Assembly (NCBI RefSeq): GCF_008040165.1
Contig: NZ_VRUR01000003.1
Coordinates: 1-64,000 of the forward strand
Source of the DNA: Flagellimonas hymeniacidonis
GTDB lineage: Bacteria > Bacteroidota > Bacteroidia > Flavobacteriales > Flavobacteriaceae
Direction of reading: 5' to 3'
Length of the DNA: 64,000 nucleotides
Every line of letters starts with the position of its first letter. Positions within the stretch are counted from its first letter, which is position 1. A model generated the notes under the pieces. It did not search any database and was not told the DNA's origin. It saw only the letters and a program-made list of their open reading frames with translations. The position numbers were made by a program, and so were the translations under genes. This document shows, piece after piece, positions 50,624 to 55,580 of the stretch.

Positions 50624-51184
50624 ATGAAAGTGAATAAAAAGACCATTTTAAACATTGCGGTGATGCTTTTTATCCTTTCATTCTTTGTGACCCCAATGGG
50701 ACATTATGGTAAAATTCTCTTGAATAAATTGTTTTCATTTTCACCACCAGTGATTGAGGAAGCAAATAGAGAAAAAATTACCGACTACGATTGGAAGCTA
50801 AAAGATGCCGAGTGGAACTTTTTCAATTTTGAAAAGTCTAAAGGAAAGGTGGTTTTTATCAATCTTTGGGCGTCTTGGAGATTGCCTTGCGAAGCAGAGC
50901 TAGCTAGCGTTCAAAAAATGTATGACAAGTACCAAGGGAAAATGGATTTCTATATCATTACCAATGAAAATAGACCGCCTGTAGAAGCATTTATGAAAAA
51001 ACATGGGTTTACTTTTCCTGTAACGTATTTGATTATTGGCGAAAAAACACCGATTAATCCAGATGAAGTTCCGTCATCATATCTCATAGATAAATCTGGA
51101 AACATTGTGATTTACAAGCAAAAAATTGCTGATTGGGCTACGTCAAAGGTATATAATCTTCTTGATACACTAATTGTGGAGTAA
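50624..51184 (+). CDS. TlpA-like thioredoxin-fold protein lacking first active-site Cys
   Basis: 186 residues. An N-terminal membrane anchor (about 8-25) is followed by a TlpA thioredoxin fold with WASWRLPCEAEL: the expected CxxC has Arg86 in place of the first Cys, with Cys89 kept. The cis-Pro region VPSSYLIDKSGNIV is intact. The lost nucleophile should abolish dithiol oxidoreductase activity; it might act as a thiol-holding or scaffold protein, or be decaying. The intact reading frame and adjacent functional copy suggest retained use. Next gene begins 6 bp on. Confidence 0.88.
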   Translation: MKVNKKTILNIAVMLFILSFFVTPMGHYGKILLNKLFSFSPPVIEEANREKITDYDWKLKDAEWNFFNFEKSKGKVVFINLWASWRLPCEAELASVQKMYDKYQGKMDFYIITNENRPPVEAFMKKHGFTFPVTYLIIGEKTPINPDEVPSSYLIDKSGNIVIYKQKIADWATSKVYNLLDTLIVE

Positions 51185-51190
51185 TACCAT

Positions 51191-51751
51191 ATGAAACTTT
51201 CCAAAGATCAAATCAACAGTGCCATTTGGATACTGGTCATTCTAATTATCTTGTTCACTCCAATTGGTTTTCACCTTAAAGTGTTTGTGGGAAAGCTGTT
51301 CGCAGGTAATGCTGATGTTGTGGAGTTAAGTGAACAAAAAACACTTAAGAATTACAATTGGAATCTCGTTGATTTGAAAGGAAACGAACTGAATTTTGAA
51401 TCGCAAAAAGATAAAGTAGTATTTGTGAACTTTTGGGCTACTTGGTGCCCACCATGTATTGCAGAACTTCCAAGTTTAGTAAAATTACATAATGATTATG
51501 GCGATAAAGTGGCATTTTACTTTGTAGCGAATGATGAAAAGACCAAGGTGACTACATTGCTTGAGAAAAAGAACTATCAATTACCAGTTTATTTTGAAAT
51601 TTCTGAGACTCCGACACAGTTACAATCTAAAAGTATCCCTGCTACTTATATCATAAATAAATCTGGTAACATTGTAGTTGCGGAAAAGGGAGCAGCCAAC
51701 TGGAACTCAGAAAGTACCAGAAACTTATTGGATAAACTTCTGTTGGAATAA
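51191..51751 (+). CDS. TlpA family membrane-anchored thiol-disulphide reductase
   Basis: 186 residues, same length and layout as the upstream copy. An N-terminal anchor (about 10-26) is followed by the thioredoxin fold with WATWCPPCIAELP (Cys86, Cys89) and cis-Pro IPATYIINKSGNIV. It reduces periplasmic disulphides, for instance in cytochrome c maturation or redox-dependent folding. Tandem duplicate, 6 bp apart, in the same operon. Confidence 0.93.
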   Translation: MKLSKDQINSAIWILVILIILFTPIGFHLKVFVGKLFAGNADVVELSEQKTLKNYNWNLVDLKGNELNFESQKDKVVFVNFWATWCPPCIAELPSLVKLHNDYGDKVAFYFVANDEKTKVTTLLEKKNYQLPVYFEISETPTQLQSKSIPATYIINKSGNIVVAEKGAANWNSESTRNLLDKLLLE

Positions 51752-51764
51752 GAGCTGTACCGGT

Positions 51765-52214
51765 TTATTTTTTAAAATATTTGAACGGAACAAAAAGCAT
51801 CCCAAAACATTCTCCATCCGCTTTTCCTAAATGTTTATGATGAATCTTGTGCGCACGTCGTACACCTCTTGCATACCAATTGTTGGCATTTCTAAATAGT
51901 TTAAAACGCTGGTGGATAAAAATATCATGAACAAAAAAATAGGCTATACCATAAGCTAAAATACCAAAGCCAAGAGGCCATCCGTACCAAAATTCTGTTT
52001 CGGCACCTAGATAAAAGCAGACCATACTAACAATAGCGTAGAAAATAAAAAAGGCATCGTTTCTTTCAAACCAAGATTCATGGTCTTTTTTATGATGGTC
52101 TTTATGCAGACTCCATAAAAACCCATGCATCACGTATTTATGCGTAAACCAGGCCATAAATTCCATTATGGAAAATGTTGCTAAAAAAATAAGAATCCAA
52201 AGGGCAATTTTCAT
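51765..52214 (-). CDS. crtZ: Beta-carotene hydroxylase, sterol-desaturase family
   Basis: 149 residues, four membrane segments. The di-iron histidine motifs of CrtZ are present: HKYVMH (HX4H, 25-30), HKDHH (HX2HH, 37-41), HDIFIH (HX4H) and HKIHH (HX2HH). It hydroxylates beta-carotene at C3 and C3', giving zeaxanthin. Its start shares 1 bp with the crtB stop on the minus strand. No lycopene cyclase gene is in the window, so that step is encoded elsewhere. Confidence 0.92.
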   Translation of the reverse strand: MKIALWILIFLATFSIMEFMAWFTHKYVMHGFLWSLHKDHHKKDHESWFERNDAFFIFYAIVSMVCFYLGAETEFWYGWPLGFGILAYGIAYFFVHDIFIHQRFKLFRNANNWYARGVRRAHKIHHKHLGKADGECFGMLFVPFKYFKK

Positions 52215-53053
52215 TAGACCAACTGTAATTTATAGTTAAAATAGGATTGGGCCAAAAGTCCGAATTTTTGATAATTCGGTACTCGAATTCGAGAATTTTT
52301 TATTTCCAATGGTGGTGTGCTCTGCAATTTCTGAAGTAACTTATTATAATATTTATAAGCCGTGTAGACTCCAAACTTGGCTTGGTCGGGTAATTTCACT
52401 ATTCCAGAATATCCCTTTGCAAAATCAGCTTTAATTTCATCCACAATTCTTTTCTTGGAGACTTCATCAAGTTCCATTAAGTTGGTATTGGGAAAATAGG
52501 TACGTTCCAGTACTTCGTAATCTGCCTTTAAGTCCCTAAGAAAATTTACCTTTTGGAAAGCTGATCCTAAAGCCATTGCCGATTCTTTCAAATCTTCATA
52601 TTTCTCCTTGTCCCCATTTACGAATACACACAGACACATTAAGCCAACAACATCAGCTGAGCCGTAAATATATTCTTGGTATTCCTCATAGGTGTTGTAC
52701 TTTTTCTTGGATAGATCCATTCGCATACTTTTCATAAACGATTCCACTAAATGATGTGGAATATCGTATTTATGATAGGTATATTGAAAAGAGTTCAAAA
52801 TTGGGTTAAGACTTATTTTATTGGCGATTGCATCTTCCATAGCCTTTTCAAAATTTTCAAAAAGCTCCTTTTTATTATAATCGTGAAAAGTATCCACGAT
52901 TTCATCTGCAAACCGGACAAATCCATAAATATTATAAATATCCGCTCTTATGGAAGTGGCCAACATTTTTGTTGCCAACGAGAAAGAAGTACTGTAGGTT
53001 TCAGTAACAATTTTGCTACAGTTGTAGGATACGCTGTCAAAAATAGTTTTCAT
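52214..53053 (-). CDS. crtB: Phytoene synthase
   Basis: 279 residues. The squalene/phytoene synthase motifs are VRFADEIVDTFHD (first DxxxD) and VNFLRDLKADY (second). It condenses two GGPP molecules into phytoene in the cytoplasmic membrane. It sits between crtI (4 bp upstream on the minus strand) and crtZ, with near-contiguous spacing, so the three are one operon. Confidence 0.95.
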   Translation of the reverse strand: MKTIFDSVSYNCSKIVTETYSTSFSLATKMLATSIRADIYNIYGFVRFADEIVDTFHDYNKKELFENFEKAMEDAIANKISLNPILNSFQYTYHKYDIPHHLVESFMKSMRMDLSKKKYNTYEEYQEYIYGSADVVGLMCLCVFVNGDKEKYEDLKESAMALGSAFQKVNFLRDLKADYEVLERTYFPNTNLMELDEVSKKRIVDEIKADFAKGYSGIVKLPDQAKFGVYTAYKYYNKLLQKLQSTPPLEIKNSRIRVPNYQKFGLLAQSYFNYKLQLV

Positions 53054-53057
53054 GGTT

Positions 53058-54512
53058 TTAAATTTTTTGAATTATCAAATCAGAAACCAATTTTCCAGAA
53101 ATTAAAGATGGAGGAACACCTGGGCCTGGAACGGTTAGCTGACCGGTAAAAAACAAATTTTTTACTTTGCTACTCTTGAGGTTGGGTCGTAAAAAGGCAG
53201 TTTGCCTAAGCGTATTTGCCATACCATACGCATTGCCTTTGTATGAATTGTATTGTTCTATAAAGTCATTTACACAAAAGCTCTCTTTAAAGATAATAGA
53301 ATTTTTGACATCTTGTTTAGTGCGTTTTACGAATCGGTCAATGACAATATCAAAATATTGGTCTCTTAATTCTGGGGTATCTTCAAGCCCAGGAGCTATA
53401 GGAACGAGAAAAAAACCTGTTTCAGCACCTTCTGGAGCCATTGAAGCATCTGTTACGGACGGAAAATTAGCATAAAACAATGGATTGCTTGGCCATTTTG
53501 GAGTGTCGTATATCTCCTGAGCGTGTTTTTCAAAATCGGTATCAAAAAAGAGATTGTGATGTTCTATGTTTTGCAGTTTCTTATTAAAGCCTACATAGAA
53601 GAGTAGAGAAGAAGGAGCGTATGTTTTCTTGCTCCAATAATTTTCTGAATATTGTCTGTTCTCGCTATCCAATAATGTTTCGGAGTGGTGATAGTCTGCA
53701 CCACTGACCACAATATCCGCGAGATGAGTTTTTGAGTTACTGTTAATTCCAGCTACTTTTCCGTTCTGCACTAAAATCTTGTTTACCGGGCTGTCTGTAT
53801 GGATTTTGACGTTTAGCTCTTCTGCTAACCCACGCATGGCCTTTATGATTTCATACATGCCTCCTTTTGGATGCCATGTCCCCAATCCAAAATCAGCAAA
53901 GTTCATAAAGCTGTAAAAAGATGGGGTTTTGCTAGGTTTGGCTCCCAAGAACAAGACAGGAAACTCTAGGGTTGATATTAATTTTGGGTTTTTGAATCGC
54001 TTTCGAACCTCATGACTTATGGTCTTAAAAAATTGATCTACTCTAAGAATGGTTTCTTTGGTGACCAATTCCATAGGAGACAGACCAGGACGTAATACCA
54101 CTTTATTTATGGCAATATCATAGTTTTCCTGTGCTTTGTGTATAAAACTCTTTAGATGTGCAGCACTACCAGATTCAATTCGTTCAAATTCTTCACATAT
54201 TTTTTCCATACAATCCCCAATGGTAATAATATCATCATCAAAAAAGATTTGATATGCGGGATTAAGCTTATCTAGTTGGTAGTAATCAGAGGTCTTTTTT
54301 CCAAAATCGGCAAAGAATTTATCAAAAATGTCGGGCATCCAGTACCAACTGGGCCCAATATCAAAGGTGAAACCATCTTTTATGAATTGTCTAGCTCTAC
54401 CACCGACGGTATCATTTTTTTCAAAAATTTCTACATCAAAACCAGCTTTGGCCAAATAGCAAGAAGCAGATAGAGAGGAAAAACCTGAACCTATAATTAT
54501 AATTTTTTTCAT
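53058..54512 (-). CDS. crtI: Phytoene desaturase (lycopene-forming)
   Basis: 484 residues, full length. The N-terminal dinucleotide-binding motif is IIGSGFSSLSASCYLAKAG, then FEKNDTVGGRARQF. The C-terminal signature is FFTGQLTVPGPGVPPSLISGK. CrtI introduces four double bases' worth of unsaturation, converting phytoene to lycopene with FAD. It starts 20 bp after the stop of the MerR regulator, so the regulator is the first gene of the operon. Confidence 0.95.
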   Translation of the reverse strand: MKKIIIIGSGFSSLSASCYLAKAGFDVEIFEKNDTVGGRARQFIKDGFTFDIGPSWYWMPDIFDKFFADFGKKTSDYYQLDKLNPAYQIFFDDDIITIGDCMEKICEEFERIESGSAAHLKSFIHKAQENYDIAINKVVLRPGLSPMELVTKETILRVDQFFKTISHEVRKRFKNPKLISTLEFPVLFLGAKPSKTPSFYSFMNFADFGLGTWHPKGGMYEIIKAMRGLAEELNVKIHTDSPVNKILVQNGKVAGINSNSKTHLADIVVSGADYHHSETLLDSENRQYSENYWSKKTYAPSSLLFYVGFNKKLQNIEHHNLFFDTDFEKHAQEIYDTPKWPSNPLFYANFPSVTDASMAPEGAETGFFLVPIAPGLEDTPELRDQYFDIVIDRFVKRTKQDVKNSIIFKESFCVNDFIEQYNSYKGNAYGMANTLRQTAFLRPNLKSSKVKNLFFTGQLTVPGPGVPPSLISGKLVSDLIIQKI

Positions 54513-54532
54513 TTCGGTAAGTTGGGAGGGGA

Positions 54533-55432
54533 TTAAAGTACTTCGATCAGTTGTTCAATAGAATTAAAGGTTTTTATGGTGTTGGGAAGTTCGTTTTCAG
54601 AAATATACTGTATTTGATGCCCCAAAACAAAAAGCTTTGATTCACCAGAAGTGTTCAAGGTTTTGGAGAATTTATTGAAATACGTGGTCAATTCATCCTT
54701 TGTGGGTGAAACCGTAAAGTAAGAGATGAAATGCACATTGCTATAATATTTGAGCAAATCCGCTAGACTTTCAATGGGCATTGTCTGACCAAGGTAAATG
54801 GATTTGTATCCTCTGAGGGTAATTTCATAGTTTAGATATAAGAGTCCTAATTCATGGATTTCATTTTCAGGAAGAAAAAGCGCAAAGACCTTGTCCTTTT
54901 GTGTAGGCTCCCTCATTTGCAATTTCTCCGTATTAATGTAAATTTTTTGCTTGATTAAGTGTGTGATAAAATGTTCATGTGCAGGACTAATGGTATCTGT
55001 TTGCCATAACAAACCCAGCTCATTCAGCAAAGGAATAAACACTTCGTTGAAAATATCCCTAAACGATCTTTCCGATAATAAACTGCTGTAAGTATTTAGG
55101 AATAGGGTCTGATCAAAATTGATCATGGCAAGTTTAAACGCGTTTATAGCGTGATTTTTTTCACTATTGTTGGATACAATTTCCCTAACCATAACCGGTA
55201 TTAAGGATTCTTCCAGTTTGGCAATTTTGGAAATTTTGTAACCGTTGTTGTAGAGTAAGGTAATGTTAAGAAGCTTTTGTAGGCTTACCAAACTATAAGT
55301 CCTAATGTTGGTGCTGGTTCTTTCCGGTGTGAACAGGTTATATCTTTTTTCCCATATCCGTATGGTATGCGCCTTAATCCCGGAGAGGTTTTCCATATCC
55401 CGAATGCTGAAGGACTTCTTTACATTGTTCAT
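54533..55432 (-). CDS. CarH-like MerR-family B12-binding regulator
   Basis: 299 residues from ATG 55432 (MNNVKKSFSIRD); an in-frame TTG at 55456 lies in the -7 box. The N-terminal MerR helix-turn-helix (about 8-75) has SGIKAHTIRIWEKRYNLFTPER. A helical domain (about 95-170) carries Trp143...Glu153-His154, with the same spacing as the W131/E141/H142 set that contacts the AdoCbl ligand in Thermus CarH. The B12 domain (about 182-299) has ExHxxG (Glu191, His193, Gly196), the lower axial ligand motif. First gene of the crtI-crtB-crtZ operon: a likely light- and B12-dependent repressor of carotenoid synthesis. Confidence 0.85.
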   Translation of the reverse strand: MNNVKKSFSIRDMENLSGIKAHTIRIWEKRYNLFTPERTSTNIRTYSLVSLQKLLNITLLYNNGYKISKIAKLEESLIPVMVREIVSNNSEKNHAINAFKLAMINFDQTLFLNTYSSLLSERSFRDIFNEVFIPLLNELGLLWQTDTISPAHEHFITHLIKQKIYINTEKLQMREPTQKDKVFALFLPENEIHELGLLYLNYEITLRGYKSIYLGQTMPIESLADLLKYYSNVHFISYFTVSPTKDELTTYFNKFSKTLNTSGESKLFVLGHQIQYISENELPNTIKTFNSIEQLIEVL

Positions 55433-55453
55433 CTTTTGTCTATAAACGTTAAA

Positions 55454-55461
55454 CAAATTTA
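55454..55461 (-). promoter_or_regulatory. -7 promoter box of the carotenoid operon
   Basis: TAAATTTG on the minus strand, an exact match, 21 bp before ATG 55432. It likely drives the regulator-crtI-crtB-crtZ operon, so operators for autoregulation would be near it. No -33 TTG at standard spacing. Confidence 0.55.
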
Positions 55462-55580
55462 CAATTTAAATCATGCCAGCCTAATATATGAACACAAAAT
55501 TTGCTAAGGTTTTAAGGAAATGAATGAGTTTTTGAGGAAATTCAAGATAGTTTTTAACACTATCAATGAGGCACTGAATA

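Follow-up and report, generated by a model that had tools for sequence, protein, structure and literature searches.

CarH-type photoreceptors are known from few model bacteria and are in use as a green-light tool. Here we describe a carH-like merR gene standing at the head of the carotenoid genes crtI, crtB and crtZ in Flagellimonas hymeniacidonis; the window, by which we mean the whole stretch of DNA analysed, comprises 64,000 nucleotides (positions 1-64,000 of contig NZ_VRUR01000003.1, assembly GCF_008040165.1). Compared with CarH/LitR of Thermus thermophilus (TtCarH; structures 5c8d, 5c8e and 3whp), the protein has the same domain order, fold, W-x9-EH, E-x-H-x-x-G and G-x-x-x-P motifs and link with carotenoid genes, but structure-aligned identity is only ~14-20%, Gln stands for His132 and Leu-Gly for Gly-Gly, and the candidate operator half-sites lie 8 bp apart, not 11. 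With a probability of about 0.65, we propose that the protein works like CarH, as an adenosylcobalamin (AdoCbl)-dependent, light-relieved and autoregulated repressor, a reading drawn from sequence comparison and a predicted structure; we class the regulator as a Bacteroidota variant of CarH, not a strict CarH.

Other described systems are related in different ways (statements cited here by PMC number refer to excerpts of those papers). Myxococcus xanthus CarA, a B12-independent paralogue, likewise combines MerR and B12 domains, represses a crt promoter and keeps the EH pair and the lower-ligand motif. The photocobilin SasPcob and CtMerR have an AdoCbl domain of the same fold, with Gln (SasPcob) or Arg (CtMerR) at the place of His132; SasPcob differs from the window protein in having a biliverdin-binding region instead of its domain order, and neither protein is described as heading a crt operon in the excerpts (PMC11796333). 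MliR, which we considered as a further counterpart, was rejected, being a different MerR protein without effector domain (PMC9478572).

The same gene in the same operon, 79% identical, is the MerR gene with B12-binding domain of strain GF1 (peg.3275, our locus L026), whose authors in 2020 placed the zeaxanthin genes downstream of it and inferred a response to photooxidative stress; the excerpts of that paper neither analyse the ligands nor test the operon with light or B12 (PMC6974559). Given the GF1 paper, our proposal is not new in outline. The sequence-only reading from which this work started had called such control little described in flavobacteria, which is half true: besides the GF1 paper, MerR genes are listed together with crt genes in PMC4732338, PMC11855829 and PMC5887021, while a light or B12 test of this regulator in Bacteroidota was not found in a literature search that left most subscription papers and all preprints outside its scope. 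In Chryseobacterium lacus, carotenoid is light-induced and a hypothetical protein was speculated to be the regulator, with no CarH homologue named in the excerpt (PMC7064467). What we add is a survey: the face that holds adenosyl and cobalt is constrained, GG and the bis-His ligand are lost, the candidate operator element is differently spaced, and a sigma-factor cassette occurs elsewhere.

Ligand residues, fold and operon of the regulator

Two samples were used. Counts of 81 refer to 80 fetched relatives of merR, down to 59% identity, plus the window protein; their nearest members are from Flagellimonas, Allomuricauda and Muricauda. The wider survey holds 186 sequences (all 146 order places and 40 of 53 further places, the window's own included), may share species with the 80 relatives and has a median pairwise identity of 30% in the B12 domain; it provides the conservation ranks, given among 204 columns. 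The genes and residues concerned are these:

54533-55432, minus strand: carH-like merR gene, 299 residues (domain models, predicted structure, homologues), encoding a MerR DNA-binding domain (residues 8-75), a four-helix bundle (~92-172) and a Rossmann domain (~178-299)
53058-54512, minus strand: crtI, phytoene desaturase (NCBIfam NF058655 'CrtID', 725.8 bits, cut-off 640; TIGR02734, 397.4 bits)
52214-53053, minus strand: crtB, phytoene synthase, of the squalene/phytoene synthase family (Pfam SQS_PSY, 1.1e-44)
51765-52214, minus strand: crtZ, probable beta-carotene hydroxylase (Pantoea plasmid match and GF1 homologue)
55004-55006, minus strand: codon of Trp143 (TtCarH W131, at the adenosyl group), W in 81/81, rank 4
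54971-54976, minus strand: codons of Glu153-His154 (TtCarH E141-H142), 81/81, ranks 1 and 12
54854-54862, minus strand: codons of Glu191-Ile192-His193 (E-x-H), E191 and H193 in 81/81, ranks 10 and 8

The residues taken by the sequence-only reading as marks of CarH (W143, E153, H154, E191, H193 and G196, in the sets Wx9EH and ExHxxG) stand where it had put them. It had staked the assignment on conservation of His193, Trp143 and Glu153 in close relatives, and all six residues are identical in 81/81. Every one of the 81 proteins likewise agrees with the published description of CarH in Wx9EH and in D/E-x-H-x2-G/P with the lower-ligand His (PMC9304148); His193 is the counterpart of TtCarH H177, the lower axial cobalt ligand. 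In the survey, all five ligands are kept in 163/186 sequences, that is, in 162 besides the window's own row.

This conservation bears on the idea that the protein is a B12-independent repressor like Myxococcus CarA, with a B12 domain that would be a structural relic and repression relieved by a partner protein or another signal. In its favour, CarA keeps its B12-binding motif and yet works without B12. Against it, CarA has EH without the Trp of Wx9EH (PMC9304148), whereas the window protein, which lacks GG, has the Trp, as do all 81. Nor would all five ligand columns be expected to rank 12 or better out of 204 if the domain were a relic. The broken GG, the unrecognised PF02310 domain and the loss of a ligand residue in some crt-operon homologues, all described below, speak for a CarA-like protein, which we nonetheless hold to be unlikely.

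The fold was compared at several levels. Pfam finds MerR_1 (PF13411, 1.4e-12) and B12-binding_2 domains in the product, and its recognition helix, RIWEKRY, is invariant in 41/41 aligned rows and corresponds to the RxWERRY helix in the MerR domain of CarH (PMC9304148), with K replacing R, which is also the case in the Comamonas comparator. An AlphaFold model made from the 41-row alignment has a mean pLDDT (predicted local distance difference test) of 88.9. Foldseek against solved structures returned TtCarH chains in its first 12 rows, and a sequence search of solved structures also placed CarH/LitR first (9e-11). With VIA-align, AdoCbl-bound TtCarH (5c8e_H) gave a Z of 17.5 and a root mean square deviation of 2.6 over 197 residues, followed by CtMerR (16.5), the photocobilin (16.0) and methionine synthase (15.1); as rows differing by less than 1 are tied, the fold reads as that of a B12-binding sensor or regulator, CarH ranking first. 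The structure model, proposed beforehand as a check, is thus closest to AdoCbl-bound Thermus CarH among solved structures, and the predicted fold is that of its AdoCbl-bound domain.

The order merR-crtI-crtB-crtZ and the 20-bp gap between merR (end at 54533) and crtI (start at 54512) were borne out. A gap of 4 bp separates crtI from crtB, crtB shares one base with crtZ, and ATG is the start codon throughout. For merR, the ATG at 55432 (299 residues) is preferable to the mechanical TTG at 55456, because 77/80 relatives begin with MN... at the matching place and because the TTG falls inside the conserved promoter element. A search of the genome gave a single copy of the regulator; homologues are present in 142/296 order genomes and 71/296 phylum genomes.

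In 78/80 relatives crtI directly follows merR (75 by a cruder adjacency measure), and 74/80 have the full series crtI-crtB-crtZ after merR on one strand. The two exceptions are L081, whose contig ends 22 bp downstream, and L076, with no crt match within 5 kb downstream. L076 and L077 are metagenome-assembled records labelled Rhizobium and Klebsiella that carry the flavobacterial-type gene (61-62% identity); these contigs are probably mislabelled or mis-binned.

In the survey, crtI adjoins merR in 67/70 sequences of the window's family (own included) and in 4/53 of family f6. At 61 loci of five other families (f6 44, f21 7, f17 6, f13 2, f22 2; among them L163, L171, L220 and L233), one homologous gene lies between merR and crtI; three scanned examples match Sigma70_r2 and Sigma70_r4_2, so that it looks like an extracytoplasmic function (ECF) sigma factor gene. 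The window has no such intervening gene. As rpoE and merR are listed in the Echinicola crt cluster (PMC8683446), this gene content is already in print.

Departures from strict CarH

Several features of the protein weigh against a CarH-like mechanism, as do the half-site spacing and the limited spread of the promoter element given in the next section. The sequence-only assignment to CarH was right on the ligand sets, but it overlooked the missing GG, the missing His132 and the unreported PF02310 domain.

The classic B12 motif reads D/ExHx2G/Px41SxT/Vx22-27GG (PMC9304148). Its third part is lost at the following site:

54620-54625, minus strand: codons of Leu270-Gly271, site of the classic GG, first Gly replaced by Leu

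As judged by eye, GG at this place occurs in 0/80 relatives and in 5/162 ligand-complete survey sequences (L166, L177, L204, L219 and L228); anywhere in the stretch, it occurs in 3/80 relatives (each time in the loop ahead of the strand) and in 8/162 survey sequences (five at the strand end, three ahead of it). Of the 80 relatives, 77 have L and 3 have I at position 270, while T (45), L (31), S (19) and I (18) are the commonest of the 162, with 16 unaligned; its column ranks 140, that of the conserved Gly271 15. A MAFFT-based register, in which the second Gly would be the lost one, was rejected: hhalign sets G271 on the second Gly of a CarH profile in which GG is present in all four members from outside Bacteroidota, and together with the five GG-keeping homologues this shows that the first Gly (270) is replaced and that position 272 is irrelevant. 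The second part of the motif, S-x-T/V, is absent too; it reads SYF, with S237 in 78/80 relatives and F, M, L or W at position 239.

The light-state ligand of TtCarH, His132, is replaced by Gln144, with Q in 80/80 relatives and His in 0/162 survey sequences. A TtCarH H132A protein was reportedly mostly tetrameric in light, although the same passage cites an earlier opposite report (PMC10442372). Given this replacement, the light state is expected to differ from the bis-His form of TtCarH; by analogy, it may resemble that of SasPcob or CtMerR, both of which lose the adenosyl group in light (PMC11796333). Of the signature given there for light-responsive cobalamin domains, GxxW, EH and GxxxP are present in 81/81, whereas GxxH is not: NxxH is found in the window protein and 77/80 relatives, G in 2/80.

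Profile searches gave a similar picture. Pfam PF02310 (B12-binding) was not reported for the window protein and was reported for 4/41 aligned members at a limit of E 10, a scan in which the HMMER filters drop most matches above 0.1; screens starting from PF02310 would miss most homologues. NCBIfam NF052513 ('repressor CarH', an equivalog) was the best family listed for the protein, though at 64.4 bits against a cut-off of 400. The protein is also no class II LitR, which has a four-helix bundle only, since Rossmann strands and helices are modelled at 178-299 (block pLDDT 83-95). Reminiscent of class II LitR are the short MerR homologues L270-L273 of family f10, open frames of 220-236 residues with no aligned Rossmann domain.

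The ligand set is incomplete in 23/186 survey sequences, six of them in crt operons, with H154 changed to Q in L136 and L138 and to R in L143 and L157, and H193 changed to N in L197 and L203; the operon therefore tolerates a regulator that may be blind. L239, L244, L247 and L250-L252 have lost at least one B12 ligand residue and have no crt genes in the fetched stretch; they are possible B12-free paralogues. Complete ligands went with crt linkage in the raw counts (141/148 with crt in the locus, 22/38 without; Fisher p 4e-8), but we dropped this association: of 14 independent pairs drawn from a FastTree tree (several long branches were flagged), 2 typically agreed with it, 0 went against it and 12 showed no difference (median p 0.5).

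The promoter element and its candidate operator

Upstream of merR, three conserved features were recognised:

55454-55461, minus strand: TAAATTTG, presumed -7 box, fixed letters each in 77-81 of 81
55447-55464, minus strand: TTGTAAATTTGTTTAACG, conserved element over the -7 box and candidate operator; its other strand carries a pair of TnnACA half-sites at a distance of 8 bp
55493-55502, minus strand: AAATTTTGTG (AAATTTTAACG in many relatives), a weaker second conserved block (columns -45 to -36)

TAAATTTG matches TAnnTTTG, which we take to be the consensus of the Bacteroidota -7 promoter box. Across the 81 upstream regions these letters keep a fixed place ~29 bases before the ATG and run into TTTGTTTAA, which is exact in 72/81; TAnnTTTG followed by [CT]TTA is found in 71/81. 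Half-site pairs 8 bp apart occur in 49/81 regions against 0.3 expected (largest of 30 samples 2). An operator had been anticipated near the gene start, and the conserved element at 55447-55464 answers to it, but not with the known CarH spacing: the tandem 11-bp nnnnTnnACAn arrangement described for CarH (PMC9304148) is found in 0/81 upstream regions, while the Thermus brockianus upstream region holds an 11-bp pair. The element supports a predicted site without proving one, as part of it consists of promoter letters and the 81 include many close relatives.

Within 200 bp upstream, TTGTTTAA is present in 72/80 relatives against 50/3652 background windows and, in the survey, in 43/70 same-family loci (against 85/1969) and 19/53 f6 loci (against 101/1934), but in only 8/51 loci of ten families outside f1 and f6. 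In the own genome, TANNTTTGTTTAAC has two matches, the merR promoter and C2:390606, and the reversed control pattern has 6; as the element is also absent just before the start of the lycopene cyclase gene, no regulon is claimed. TTTGTTTAAC matches once in the window against 0.56 expected, so it is not rarer than chance and only its conserved position favours it. A tandem-repeat search of the upstream region found nothing. Further upstream lies a tRNA-Leu gene (55691-55607).

The position of the element bears on whether the protein could instead be a conventional MerR activator that turns on the crt promoter by binding. Activators make up most of the MerR family (PMC9478572), and this protein has a typical MerR domain and heads its operon. 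On the other hand, the element overlies the -7 box, so that a protein bound there should get in the way of transcription, and the regulator shares its fold and ligands with a family of repressors. We consider an activator very unlikely.

AdoCbl supply, proposed mechanism and neighbouring genes

The genome holds genes for uptake of B12 and for making and using AdoCbl. Its one cobalamin riboswitch (116.2 bits) stands before a gene with a TonB-receptor plug domain, whose divergent neighbour encodes a Peripla_BP_2-family periplasmic binding protein. Genes for a PduO-type adenosyltransferase (212.7 bits) and a methylmalonyl-CoA mutase (765.5 bits) are also present. Riboswitch, adenosyltransferase and mutase together suggest that AdoCbl is available in the cell. 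The adenosyltransferase was rejected as a discriminator of regulator-using genomes, since it is nearly general (234/296 order genomes) and its absences are mostly in tiny genomes: of 20 listed without it, 18 are f15 genomes of at most 0.6 Mb. A rhodopsin search gave no match, and its control matched nowhere either.

In the mechanism we favour, the MerR protein would bind AdoCbl in the dark, with His193 below the cobalt and Trp143, Glu153 and His154 around the adenosyl group; so loaded, it would assemble, sit on 55447-55464 and block the promoter. Light would break the Co-C bond and loosen the assembly, merR-crtI-crtB-crtZ would be transcribed, and a hydroxylated carotenoid would serve as photoprotection. 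The light-induced, AdoCbl-dependent synthesis predicted by the sequence-only reading is in this way partly supported: it is in line with the ligands, the fold, the place of the gene in the operon, the promoter element and the AdoCbl genes, whereas GG, His132 and the 11-bp spacing deviate.

AdoCbl is generally light-sensitive, wherever it is bound. This matters for another reading, in which the protein is an AdoCbl-binding repressor whose signal is corrinoid supply or redox state and not light, so that low AdoCbl or a changed upper ligand would relieve repression. The ligand set is indeed kept while the light-state His132 is gone, and the riboswitch before the TonB-receptor gene implies that intracellular AdoCbl may vary. 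Against it, Trp143 and Glu153, adenosyl contacts by the CarH literature, are among the most conserved columns, the target pathway is photoprotective, and the general light sensitivity of AdoCbl leads one to expect some light response. This reading seems to us rather unlikely.

If the branch works as the proposed CarH-like mechanism would have it, light control of carotenoids through AdoCbl would be widespread among yellow and orange Bacteroidota, with pigment and photoprotection tied to vitamin supply, and light sensing would be shown to work without the bis-His state and without the GG tail site. The homologues, including those with a single ligand lost, would form a natural series for testing which features matter. 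More speculatively, and with low odds, Bacteroidota may have their own branch of CarH-type light receptors in which the adenosyl and cobalt face is guarded more strictly than almost all other parts while the GG tail site and the bis-His state were dropped, and which could accept adenosyl-cobamides with different tails. Such a branch could use pseudocobalamin from cyanobacteria, reading light through any corrinoid that a marine bacterium scavenged, and the ECF-type sigma factor gene between repressor and crtI in several other families would make a relay.

As to the pathway, the crt genes had been called a zeaxanthin operon. The crtI-crtB-crtZ set is there, but it is incomplete, with the lycopene cyclase gene elsewhere (G000:C1:861644), as in strain GF1, where the cyclase likewise lies apart from the crt cluster (PMC6974559). 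No Pfam or NCBIfam model names the crtZ product above cut-off; it is ~40% identical to a sterol-desaturase-family protein on Pantoea plasmids, and its homologue (84%) is the third gene after merR in GF1, whose authors name a hydroxylase within this cluster (PMC6974559). The NCBIfam model passed by crtI (725.8 against 640 bits) is that of a 'bifunctional phytoene desaturase/3,4-desaturase', so zeaxanthin may not be the only carotenoid made.

Convergent with the crt operon are two adjoining genes for thioredoxin-like (AhpC-TSA/Redoxin) proteins:

50624-51184, plus strand: first thioredoxin-like gene
51191-51751, plus strand: second thioredoxin-like gene

By eye, the second protein has WCPPC, and the first reads WRLPC, which is without the first Cys of CxxC.

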